Positions 60,165 to 63,477 of a stretch of DNA of 64,000 nt are shown piece by piece. Under the pieces are notes generated by a model. It did no database searches. It had not been told where the DNA came from and saw nothing but the letters and a program-made list of their open reading frames with translations. The DNA is taken from NCBI RefSeq assembly GCF_008973715.1, contig NZ_WBOL01000007.1:1-64000 (forward strand), given 5' to 3'. The DNA comes from Nitrincola schmidtii (GTDB lineage: Bacteria; Pseudomonadota; Gammaproteobacteria; Pseudomonadales; Balneatricaceae). Position numbers and translations under genes: made by a program. Each line of letters starts with the position of its first letter. The first letter of the stretch is position 1.

Positions 60165-61349
60165 ATGAGTAACCCATTTCCCCTCGGTGAAATCAGTATC
60201 GAAACGTTTCTTCGTGAATACTGGCAAAAGAAACCCTTAGTCATCCGTAATGCCATACCTGATTTCCAATGCCCTGTGGATGCTGATGAGTTGGCGGGAT
60301 TAGCCTGCGAACAAGATATTGAATCTCGTCTGATTGCCTTTGATCCATCAGCTGACAAATGGCATATGGAACAGGGGCCTTTTGAGGAAAGTCGTTTTGC
60401 ATCCTTGCCTGAAAAAAACTGGACGTTATTAGTTCAAGCTGTTGATCACTGGGTACCAGAAGCGCACGCCCTACTTCGTCAATTTAACTTTATACCCAAC
60501 TGGCGCATCGATGACTTAATGATCAGCTATGCTGTTCAAGGCGGTGGTGTCGGTCCTCATTATGATAACTATGATGTGTTCCTGATACAGGCACAAGGCA
60601 CGCGTCGCTGGGAATTTGGTGGTCATTATGACGAGCACTCCCCCCGTCGTGATGATGCTCCGGTGATGATTTTACCTGAGTGGCAAGCTGAAACCTCTGT
60701 TGAGCTGAACCCTGGCGATCTGCTCTATCTACCGCCGCGGATTGGTCACAATGGCGTAACAACTACTGATGACTGCATCACTTGCTCGGTTGGTTTTAGA
60801 GCGCCTGCAACCCATGAAATGCTGAGAAGCTTCACGGATGAACTAGGAGAGCAAATCGGACATGACGAGCGTTATGAAGATCCTGATCTAACCATTTCTG
60901 AAGACGCAGGCGTTATTTCTGACGAAGCGATTGATCGTGCACACCAAATGCTTCTCAATCACCTTCAAGATAAGCAGCGTTTTCGTGAATGGTTTGGTCG
61001 CTTTGTGACGGAGCCTAAGTATACGGAACAACAGATAGATAGTGATGATGAGGTTAACTCTGATGAGTTGATTGAGTTCTTTGAGAACGAAGGTGTTTTA
61101 CTGATCAATGAAGGATCTCGTTTAGCCTGGTCAGGTTCAGATGCAGAAACAAATTTCTTTGCTGATGGACAGAGCTATTCGTTAAAAACGCAGGCATCAA
61201 TTTGTTTGGCGAAACATCTTTGTGAGTATCTTCCACTCACTGCTGAAACCATAGATATTGCGGATGCACAATCTGTAGCATTGGTATGTACCCTACTTCA
61301 ACGTGGTTTGCTCTACTCTGAAACAGACATAGATGAAGATGAAGCGTAA
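60165..61349 (+). CDS. roxA: Ribosomal protein arginine hydroxylase, RoxA/YcfD
   Basis: A 394-residue JmjC/cupin 2-oxoglutarate oxygenase. The iron triad is seen as His-x-Asp in VGPHYDNYDVFLIQ and a distal His in PPRIGHNGVT. The N-terminal FLREYWQKKPLVIRNA and C-terminal winged-helix region with acidic tail fit E. coli YcfD, which hydroxylates an Arg of ribosomal protein L16. The frame opens at 60129; the ATG at 60165 has AGGAG nine bases upstream and fits the family start. In E. coli it also lies near purB. Confidence 0.9.
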   Translation: MSNPFPLGEISIETFLREYWQKKPLVIRNAIPDFQCPVDADELAGLACEQDIESRLIAFDPSADKWHMEQGPFEESRFASLPEKNWTLLVQAVDHWVPEAHALLRQFNFIPNWRIDDLMISYAVQGGGVGPHYDNYDVFLIQAQGTRRWEFGGHYDEHSPRRDDAPVMILPEWQAETSVELNPGDLLYLPPRIGHNGVTTTDDCITCSVGFRAPATHEMLRSFTDELGEQIGHDERYEDPDLTISEDAGVISDEAIDRAHQMLLNHLQDKQRFREWFGRFVTEPKYTEQQIDSDDEVNSDELIEFFENEGVLLINEGSRLAWSGSDAETNFFADGQSYSLKTQASICLAKHLCEYLPLTAETIDIADAQSVALVCTLLQRGLLYSETDIDEDEA

Positions 61350-61392
61350 CAAGACAATTCAAACCTACTAACAGATCTGTTCATTTCTACTG

Positions 61393-61432
61393 AAGCCTAG
61401 CGTTATTGATGAAATACGCTAGGCTTTCCTTT
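61393..61432 (+). terminator. Terminator of roxA
   Basis: AAGCCTAGCGT (61393-61403) pairs perfectly with ACGCTAGGCTT (61416-61426), followed by TCCTTTC. A clear Rho-independent type stem. Confidence 0.8.
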
Positions 61433-61672
61433 CGACTAAAGCCTACAAACTTTGGTATAAAAATTAAGTAAATCAGCTATTTCAGATAAAAAAAACGTTT
61501 TTGTAGTCAACTTTTTATAGAATAAATTGATCTATAAAATAGCTTTTTAATTCCGGTAGTGAAGGGTAAAAGCCAGCATAAAAAGGTAAAACCAAAGTAG
61601 TAACGGAATCATAAATAGCCCTATAACGATGATATTTACTTAGCAAATCTGGCGCTAGAGTGTTAAAAGCAA

Positions 61673-61721
61673 TGTAGTAAAACTACACTTTTAAGTGATT
61701 AGCCTATGTAGTCTGACTACA
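61673..61721 (+). promoter_or_regulatory. Two palindromic operators upstream of aceA
   Basis: TGTAGT-AAA-ACTACA (61673-61687) and TGTAGT-CTG-ACTACA (61707-61721) are exact palindromes 34 bases apart centre to centre, about three helical turns. As I recall, TGTAGT/ACTACA half-sites are those of RccR, an RpiR-family regulator of the glyoxylate shunt in Pseudomonas. The spacing here is three bases. Confidence 0.7.
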
Positions 61722-61881
61722 GCATTGCTGCTATGCACAAAAACAGCTTTGACTCTGATCTCAGTTACCTCCATCATGCATCTCAACAACGCAAACAAAG
61801 CAGTTAACAGCAAGCTTTTAAAAATGTCTGCGTTAAATACGTTACCACCTCCTTAACCGAAAATAGTGAGAAGGAAAAACC

Positions 61882-63477
61882 ATGTCTACTCTTAACAAAG
61901 ACATCGACGCTGTAGCCAAGTTGGCAAAAGAGTTTGGCCCTGCTTTTGAAGGCATCAACCCTGAATATGCAGCGCGCATGCGTGCACAGAACCGCTTCAA
62001 GACTGGTCTAGAAATCGCTCAGTACACCGCTGACATTATGCGTAAAGACATGGCTGAGTATGATGCTAACAGCGCTGACTACACACAATCTTTAGGTTGC
62101 TGGCACGGCTTTATCGGTCAGCAAAAACTGATCGCTATCAAAAAGCACTTCGGTACGACTAAAAAGCGTTACCTCTACCTTTCAGGTTGGATGATCGCAG
62201 CGCTTCGTTCACAGTTTGGTCCATTACCTGACCAATCAATGCATGAGAAAACTTCTGTGCCTGCGCTGATCGAAGAACTTTACACTTTCCTACGTCAAGC
62301 TGACGCTCGTGAAATGGGCGGTCTGTTCCGTCAGTTAGACGCGGCGCGTGCTGCGGGTGATAAAGCTGCAGAAGCTGCTGTACAAGCTAAAATCGACAAC
62401 TTCGAAACGCATGTTGTGCCAATCATTGCTGACATCGACGCTGGTTTCGGTAACGAAGAAGCAACTTACCTGCTAGCTAAGCGCATGATCGAAGCCGGTG
62501 CTTGTGCTATCCAGATCGAAAACCAAGTATCTGACGAGAAACAATGTGGTCACCAAGATGGTAAAGTTACCGTTCCTCACGCTGACTTCCTAGCGAAGAT
62601 CCGTGCCGTTCGTTACGCTTTCCTAGAGTTAGGCATCGATAACGGTGTTATCGTTGCACGTACTGACTCTTTAGGTGCTGGCCTGACTAAGCAGATCGCT
62701 GTCACGAATGAACCTGGTGACTTGGGTGACAAGTACAACAGCTTCCTAGACGGTGACTACATCAACAGCGCTGATGACATCGCTAACGGTGACGTCGTTG
62801 TTAAAGCGAACGGTAAGCTGCTTAAGCCTAAGCGTTTAGCGTCTGGTTTGTTCCAGTTCAAGAAAGATTCCGGTGTTGACCGTGTTGTTCTTGACTGTAT
62901 CACCTCTTTGCAAAACGGTGCTGACCTTCTTTGGATCGAAACTGAGAAGCCACACGTAGGTCAAATCGCTGAAATGGTTAACCGCATCCGTGAAGTGGTT
63001 CCAAATGCTAAGCTGGTTTACAACAACAGCCCATCATTCAACTGGACCCTGAACTTCCGTCAGCAAGTATTTGATGCCATGGCTGAAGCTGGTGCAGACG
63101 TTTCTAAGTACGATCGCGCTAACCTGATGTCTGTAGAGTACGATGAGACTGAATTGGCTATCGAAGCCGATAACCGTATCCGTACCTTCCAGGCTGATGC
63201 ATCTCGTGAAGCGGGTATCTTCCACCACTTGATCACACTGCCAACTTACCACACTGCTGCGCTGTCTACTGACAACCTGGCTAAAGAGTACTTTGGTGAT
63301 GCGGGCATGTTGGGCTACGTCGAAGGTGTTCAGCGTAAAGAGATCCGTCAAGGTATCGCTTGTGTGAAACACCAAAACATGGCGGGTTCAGACATGGGTG
63401 ATGATCACAAAGAATACTTCTCTGGTGATGCTGCACTGAAAGCGTCTGGTAAAGACAACACCATGAACCAGTTCTAA
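61882..63477 (+). CDS. aceA: Isocitrate lyase
   Basis: A 531-residue enzyme, the length of the Pseudomonas-type isocitrate lyase rather than the 434-residue E. coli form. The catalytic loop is seen as KQCGHQDGKVTVPH (about residues 214-227, Cys at 216), with Mg2+-binding Asp residues in IIADIDAGFGNEEATYLLAKRM and NNSPSFNW near residue 380. It splits isocitrate into glyoxylate and succinate. AAGGA precedes the ATG. Codon choice looks strongly biased (many GCT, GGT, AAC), as in highly expressed genes. Confidence 0.96.
   Translation: MSTLNKDIDAVAKLAKEFGPAFEGINPEYAARMRAQNRFKTGLEIAQYTADIMRKDMAEYDANSADYTQSLGCWHGFIGQQKLIAIKKHFGTTKKRYLYLSGWMIAALRSQFGPLPDQSMHEKTSVPALIEELYTFLRQADAREMGGLFRQLDAARAAGDKAAEAAVQAKIDNFETHVVPIIADIDAGFGNEEATYLLAKRMIEAGACAIQIENQVSDEKQCGHQDGKVTVPHADFLAKIRAVRYAFLELGIDNGVIVARTDSLGAGLTKQIAVTNEPGDLGDKYNSFLDGDYINSADDIANGDVVVKANGKLLKPKRLASGLFQFKKDSGVDRVVLDCITSLQNGADLLWIETEKPHVGQIAEMVNRIREVVPNAKLVYNNSPSFNWTLNFRQQVFDAMAEAGADVSKYDRANLMSVEYDETELAIEADNRIRTFQADASREAGIFHHLITLPTYHTAALSTDNLAKEYFGDAGMLGYVEGVQRKEIRQGIACVKHQNMAGSDMGDDHKEYFSGDAALKASGKDNTMNQF

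Follow-up and report, generated by a model that had tools for sequence, protein, structure and literature searches.

What governs the gene for isocitrate lyase in Nitrincola schmidtii, the host, whose aceA leader carries two exact copies of a rare palindrome? The stretch of DNA analysed here (the window, 64,000 nucleotides) contains an ORF assigned to isocitrate lyase (NF005074, 1048.9 bits), the nearest to it among 80 named loci being aceA of Nitrincola sp. A-D6 (96% identity). Two exact 15-base palindromes of the form TGTAGT-N3-ACTACA (here called N3 sites; N13 and N14 denote the same half-sites with longer spacers) had been reported 34 bases apart in a leader of about 530 bases upstream of this gene, and our analysis confirmed both their positions and their rarity (Table 1). 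The leader measures 532 bases, and the centres of the two sites, O1 and O2, are 34 bases apart. Exact copies number two in the window against a mean of 0.00 in 100 dinucleotide shuffles; base composition predicts ~5.5e-5 in a 532-base leader and ~0.27 in 3.14 Mb, and O1 and O2 are the sole exact copies in the 3,140,149 bases of the genome searched.

Table 1. Features of the aceA region, in window coordinates (a dot marks features given without strand)
Feature	Position	Strand	Remarks
aceA leader, 532 bases	61350..61881	+	from upstream ORF end (61349) to aceA ATG (61882)
Far-upstream element	61449..61598	.	ACTTTGGT 61449-61456; TTTGTAGT...ATAGA 61500-61521; ACCAAAGT 61591-61598
O1, putative RccR short-class operator, TGTAGTAAAACTACA	61673..61687	.	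centre ~-105 from inferred transcription start
O2, putative RccR short-class operator, TGTAGTCTGACTACA	61707..61721	.	centre ~-71
TTGCTGC-N3-GCACAAAA block	61725..61742	+	conserved, between O2 and -35
-35 hexamer TTGACT	61749..61754	+	TTGACA or TTGACT in 16/16 tandem leaders
-10 hexamer CATCAT	61772..61777	+	17 bases after -35
aceA, isocitrate lyase, 531 aa	61882..63477	+	NF005074

Two further N3 copies with one mismatch occur genome-wide, one upstream of aceE (C12:108824) and one (C7:41897) within an ORF that we take from its sequence to be signal peptidase II, lspA. The four sites with at most one mismatch are thus distributed as two at aceA, one at aceE, and one in an unrelated ORF. Looser matches are not in excess, with 17 3-mismatch palindromes in the window vs. 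23.13 expected, and 77 2-mismatch palindromes genome-wide vs. 286 for a reversed control, so weak sites were counted solely where their position is conserved. Recurrence of the palindrome at central-carbon genes, which the original prediction had proposed to look for, held at aceE. For glcB, pckA, gap, and pntAA of the Pseudomonas RccR regulon, the N3 and N14 sites with at most one mismatch, which were the ones placed genome-wide, gave no support: those away from aceA and aceE all lie in unrelated ORFs. The N14 sites with one mismatch number four, all intra-ORF, and at this stringency long-class sites like those of Pseudomonas were rejected for the host genome. In two relatives, a 1-mismatch RccR-type site lies between divergent genes (L243 1548-1562; L245 1497-1511; L263 15591-15605), which from a look at their sequences are presumably ppsA (PEP synthase) and ppsR. 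As an RccR target in the host, ppsA/ppsR was rejected, just a degenerate TGTAA-N5-TTACA (a 3-mismatch palindrome) being present there.

The half-sites had been likened to those of RccR, an assignment that depends on an RccR homologue being encoded in the genome, and one was found. Among three RpiR-family matches in the host genome, the protein encoded at locus L011 (domains HTH_6 and SIS) has 8k3b (E 1.4e-105) and 8ju9 (E 1.4e-104) as its best PDB matches, the former being the P. aeruginosa RccR/KDPG complex (PMC10810197). One of the other two RpiR proteins matches these structures weakly (7e-7 and 8e-7), and one has no match at E 0.001. In NCBIfam, the L011 protein scores best with the HexR model (298.2 bits against a cut-off of 296), and no RccR model is among its 17 NCBIfam hits. 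However, its homologues in 30 genomes reached through the named loci split into an RccR class with at least 53% identity (20 genomes) and a HexR class with at most 45%, two genomes having neither at E 1e-40; at this threshold the host has no HexR-class match. At the KDPG-contacting position 164, the aligned proteins have H in 50/50 of the RccR class and L or V in 9/9 of the HexR class. In our view the NCBIfam name is outweighed by the nearer PDB match and by the division into two groups, and we refer to the protein as RccR. Seven of its nine KDPG-contact residues are identical to those of the structure, and two are changed from S to T.

The 700 bp upstream of host rccR contain no N3, N13, or N14 site with up to two mismatches. 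In a relative (G066), a 1-mismatch N3 site is located just upstream of rccR (L262 1478-1492), and this arrangement suggests that rccR may be autoregulated in G066, and not in the host. A perfect TGGT-N3-ACCA palindrome, presumably a PdhR-like core, lies ~140 bp upstream of host rccR (L011 1344-1354); rccR could be under PdhR control.

The published RccR operators fall into two classes. In P. fluorescens SBW25, aceE and rccR carry a 15-bp class, and aceA is among the genes with a 28-bp class (PMC5489143). The sequence of O1 matches one of the two aceE sites given there letter for letter, bearing out the supposed resemblance to RccR half-sites. The suspicion that the N3 spacing might depart from that of Pseudomonas sites proved mistaken, N3 being the spacing of the published 15-bp class (PMC5489143). 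In 80 named aceA leaders of up to 800 bp, we looked for the half-sites at every spacer from 0 to 30. An exact N14 site is present in 16 and an exact N13 site in one, together 17/17 of the leaders assigned by name to Pseudomonas or its near relatives, and all of these 17 Pseudomonas-group leaders lack an exact N3 site. Four of the 80 leaders do have one (Nitrincola, two Halomonas, and Vreelandella); the one exact N24 site, from an Oxalobacteraceae MAG, appears to be a chance match. These counts indicate that the aceA operator class differs between lineages.

The palindromes might instead be bound by PdhR, a regulator of the GntR/FadR type whose gene immediately precedes aceE. The PdhR family recognises TNGT-N3-ACNA-like palindromes, a motif that shares the N3 geometry and fits the core of O1 and O2, and a PdhR-like protein is encoded directly upstream of host aceE (NF007001, 297.8 bits, below the cut-off of 330). 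Yet across genomes the palindrome does not go with PdhR. Of the genomes with PdhR next to aceE but no RccR-class match, 6/6 lack it at aceE, while the Pseudomonas group, Halomonas, and Microbulbifer have the aceE palindrome although the locus (~1.5 kb upstream) yielded no PdhR. Together with the identity of O1 to a published RccR site (PMC5489143), this led us to reject PdhR, which we consider a very improbable binder. An aceE N3 site with at most one mismatch is instead found in 19/20 assessable RccR-class genomes (host included) vs. 1/10 without RccR, an association (Fisher p 7e-6, relatedness uncorrected) for which the p value is just a guide because the genomes share ancestry. One RccR genome (G028) was set aside, having 28 bp of aceE upstream sequence. 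The sole RccR genome without such a site (G007) has a 2-mismatch aceE site, and the exception among genomes without RccR is Endozoicomonas (no match at E 1e-40), whose aceE is preceded, at a distance of 509 bp, by a 1-mismatch site.

The arrangement of O1 and O2 is conserved in the host family. We found aceA in 53/60 host-family genomes (E 1e-100) and fetched the best 30 of the 53 loci, a sample biased to close relatives. Sixteen of these leaders, spanning five genera, carry two N3 sites (up to two mismatches each) exactly 34 bp apart and are here called tandem leaders; a further leader has two sites 24 bp apart, five have a single site, and eight have none at up to two mismatches, all eight of these genomes still carrying RccR. 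Pairwise identity in the 16 tandem leaders is 83-100% in the half-sites, 29% in the 19-bp spacer, and 31% in the 30 bp before O1. In all 16, TTGACA or TTGACT starts 26-27 bp past O2 and is followed by CATNAT as the -10 hexamer, with a spacer of 17 (18 in G066 and G044). These hexamers predict an aceA transcription start at ~61785 in the host and place the tandem sites at ~-105 and ~-71, both upstream of the -35 hexamer in 16/16 leaders. The site of the single-site leaders is held at -104 or -105 in 5/5. Class I activators typically act from near -71 and -104. A separation of 34 bp does not correspond to an integral number of helical turns. By the top promoter candidate, three Halomonas-type aceA leaders have their site at -69, -114, and -185, a scatter that gives no sign of a fixed geometry outside the host family. 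The published-class identity, the orthologue, the recurrence at aceE, the co-occurrence across genomes, and the fixed spacing and promoter distance all point, at the level of sequence, to O1 and O2 being RccR operators, which we regard as very probable. The eight site-less leaders, the lack of a site before host rccR, and the Endozoicomonas exception count against it.

O1 and O2 are flanked by two other conserved elements. The far-upstream element is AT-rich, conserved over five genera, and ends ~75 bp before O1. It contains the TGTAGT at 61502-61507 that had been proposed as an additional half-site; the hexamer is present, and belongs mainly to this other element, being kept in 16/16 tandem leaders within TTTGTAGT...TAGA. 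Read as the left half of an N13 long-class site it gives two mismatches, at -380, and a like candidate (two mismatches) occurs in four more of the 30 family leaders, but its right half is not conserved over the 16 tandem leaders. No N13 or N14 site with at most one mismatch is present in the host aceA leader. A structured RNA in the leader was rejected, as no Rfam match was found at E 1 within 61000-62000 and no consensus RNA structure was predicted for the element, which is possibly an enhancer-like site for another regulator.

The second element, the TTGCTGC block, is found (with up to three mismatches) in 22/22 family aceA leaders with an N3 site and 0/8 without. Elsewhere it occurs in 3/80 named aceA leaders (Nitrincola and two others) and 7/550 shuffled leaders. 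With PhaR considered as its binder, the S. meliloti motif (PMC12542648) fits two aceE stretches by eye, but the aceA block departs from it at one position; the likeness of the block to PhaR-type TGC-rich sites is no more than partial. Close to its RccR sites, host aceE carries TGCACTGCA and TGCGGTGCA.

Upstream of host aceE, a 1-mismatch and a 2-mismatch N3 site lie 82 bp apart, the latter being no better than chance on its own (reversed control). A second, weaker site with one to three mismatches recurs 81-84 bp upstream in 8/9 family aceE loci. In 9/9 family loci read, the proximal site contains TAGTAT as a -10 hexamer, 17 bases after TRGAC(A/T). This promoter ranks top in 8/9, another site-overlapping candidate scoring slightly higher in the host. 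Motiliproteus aceE shows the same -10 overlap, with a spacer of 18. The same hexamers and offset are not the best in eight more aceE loci (five Pseudomonas-group, two Halomonas, and one Microbulbifer), and the -10 overlap is weaker at Pseudomonas and Halomonas aceE; two aceE sites are 51-53 bp apart in 9/11 Pseudomonas-group loci scanned. A site that covers the -10 hexamer fits repression of aceE. The aceE match in Nitrincola A-D6 (L158) is in two overlapping pieces, one with an internal TGA, and this split is a frameshift or assembly error.

The original prediction went on to link Entner-Doudoroff flux to acetate use through KDPG, and this part did not survive examination of the host genome, which is rated 100% complete. 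No match to eda (TIGR01182) was found in the host, Nitrincola A-D6, or Motiliproteus among the 17 genomes searched, nor in three congeners, and eda is over the cut-off in 32/58 host-family genomes. The host's edd-family matches (TIGR01196) score 252.8 and 245.7 bits vs. a cut-off of 708.25 and are likely IlvD-type; in the 14 genomes searched for edd, scores were far below the cut-off in the host, Nitrincola A-D6, Motiliproteus, and the three congeners. Another congener (G067) has edd over the cut-off and eda present. With neither eda nor edd found, KDPG from the Entner-Doudoroff pathway is not expected in the host.

RccR is nonetheless kept where eda is missing. An RccR-class protein is present in 57/58 family genomes and in 25/26 of those without eda over the cut-off (host included), one genome (G039) having neither. 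HexR-class proteins, other sensors of KDPG, mostly go with eda: 29 family genomes have both, 23 neither, three eda only, and three HexR only (Fisher p 6e-10, relatedness uncorrected), and two of the HexR-only genomes (G075 and G088) are fragmented, so that eda may be missed there. This difference speaks for a second signal of RccR. Tandem leaders with the 34-bp distance are found in genomes that have eda (G067, five g5 genomes, G066, and G044) as well as in genomes that lack it (four of g1 and four of g7). The KDPG contacts, with S or T at two positions, are kept in 16/17 RccR proteins aligned from eda-less genomes, and Motiliproteus RccR has K270 changed to R. Two entries, G043 and G002 (Motiliproteus), are probably the same genome, having the same match coordinates, so that the named-locus and family sets would overlap by one.

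We therefore think it probable that the effector in the host is not made by the Entner-Doudoroff pathway. KDPG could still act, in an altered form of the control, if it arises by a route that the searches did not detect (e.g., 2-keto-3-deoxygluconate kinase or unrelated enzymes). All nine contact positions being kept in the host would be in keeping with this, and the conserved pocket would suit KDPG no less than another ligand; the complete genome without eda or edd over the cut-off and the tendency of HexR to follow eda make it unlikely. The host effector would then be another phosphorylated acid in the same pocket, or RccR may be mostly ligand-free, rather than respond to KDPG from the Entner-Doudoroff pathway.

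The sign of the control at aceA bears on the same point. In Pseudomonas, KDPG raises the affinity of RccR for 28-bp sites and lowers it for short sites (PMC5489143). Since ligand-free RccR favours short sites under this rule, and no KDPG from the pathway is expected, a repressor at O1 and O2 would keep aceA permanently off. The upstream placement of the sites suggests the opposite sign, with aceA activated and aceE repressed. RccR would bind both O1 and O2 and act from ~-105 and ~-71, most likely as an activator, and the geometry gives activation of aceA what we judge to be an even chance. The same RccR, in the same state, would repress aceE by covering the -10 hexamer. One operator class at two positions could in this way place pyruvate dehydrogenase and the glyoxylate shunt under opposite control, keeping the physiological logic of the shunt on and pyruvate dehydrogenase off.

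Repression of aceA from O1 and O2, either by looping or by blocking an activator at 61449-61598 or at the TTGCTGC block and relieved by ligand on acetate, is a possibility that we are inclined to doubt. In two Pseudomonas species, RccR acts as a repressor of aceA, glcB, and aceE (PMC5489143, PMC10810197), and the direct targets studied there, aceA included, are described as repressed (PMC5489143). In an rccR deletion of PAO1, most changed genes fell, but aceE, aceF, aceA, and glcB rose, so that direct activation by RccR is not shown by the available account (PMC10810197). Repression also accords with the position of O1 and O2 between two conserved features, the far-upstream element and the TTGCTGC block. 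It is opposed by the location of both sites upstream of the -35 hexamer in 16/16 tandem leaders, and by the permanent shutdown of aceA noted above. Paired RccR short-class operators with activation of aceA, repression of aceE, and an effector from outside the Entner-Doudoroff pathway are the best overall explanation, and a reasonably probable one.

More broadly, and more tentatively, RccR of this family may be a dual regulator that activates aceA from -71/-105 and represses aceE at the -10 hexamer, and that, in the many members without the Entner-Doudoroff pathway, signals another central metabolite by means of a KDPG pocket left unchanged. If so, RccR would be a sensor that has outlived the pathway making its known signal. 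Why 15- and 28-bp sites respond oppositely to KDPG is called unclear in PMC5489143, and the host family offers a natural test, with an orthologous protein acting on the same gene through the other operator class at another promoter position. RccR homologues occur in dozens of genera (PMC5489143). Judged by titles and abstract starts, the open-licence papers listed by our searches include none that deals with RccR in genera other than Pseudomonas or in bacteria lacking the Entner-Doudoroff pathway, and none on a second RccR signal.

Among known systems, enterobacterial PdhR resembles the host in its aceE-adjacent gene and differs in that the host palindrome does not follow PdhR. In Shewanella, HexR, an RpiR relative, is predicted to regulate the glyoxylate-shunt operon aceBA (PMC3223726), and it is noted in PMC5489143 as well. 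It belongs to a different protein class (42% identity to host RccR), and although PdhR adjoins aceE there as in the host, the 700 bp upstream of Shewanella aceE contain no TGTAGT-N3-ACTACA within two mismatches. The closest counterparts are the Pseudomonas 15-bp operators at aceE and rccR, which share the half-sites, the N3 spacing, and the tandem pair (PMC5489143); Pseudomonas RccR binds aceE at or near the transcription start (PMC5489143). The N3 class itself is thus already known (PMC5489143), and what differs from Pseudomonas is its placement, at aceA, upstream of the promoter and 34 bp apart. The Pseudomonas aceA operator shares with the host the gene, the half-sites, and an orthologous regulator, but has a spacer of N14 or N13 rather than N3, and its 28-bp site is at -40/-41, where RccR represses (PMC5489143). 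The opposite control that Pseudomonas achieves with two spacer lengths and opposite KDPG responses would be achieved in the host by one spacer length at two promoter positions.
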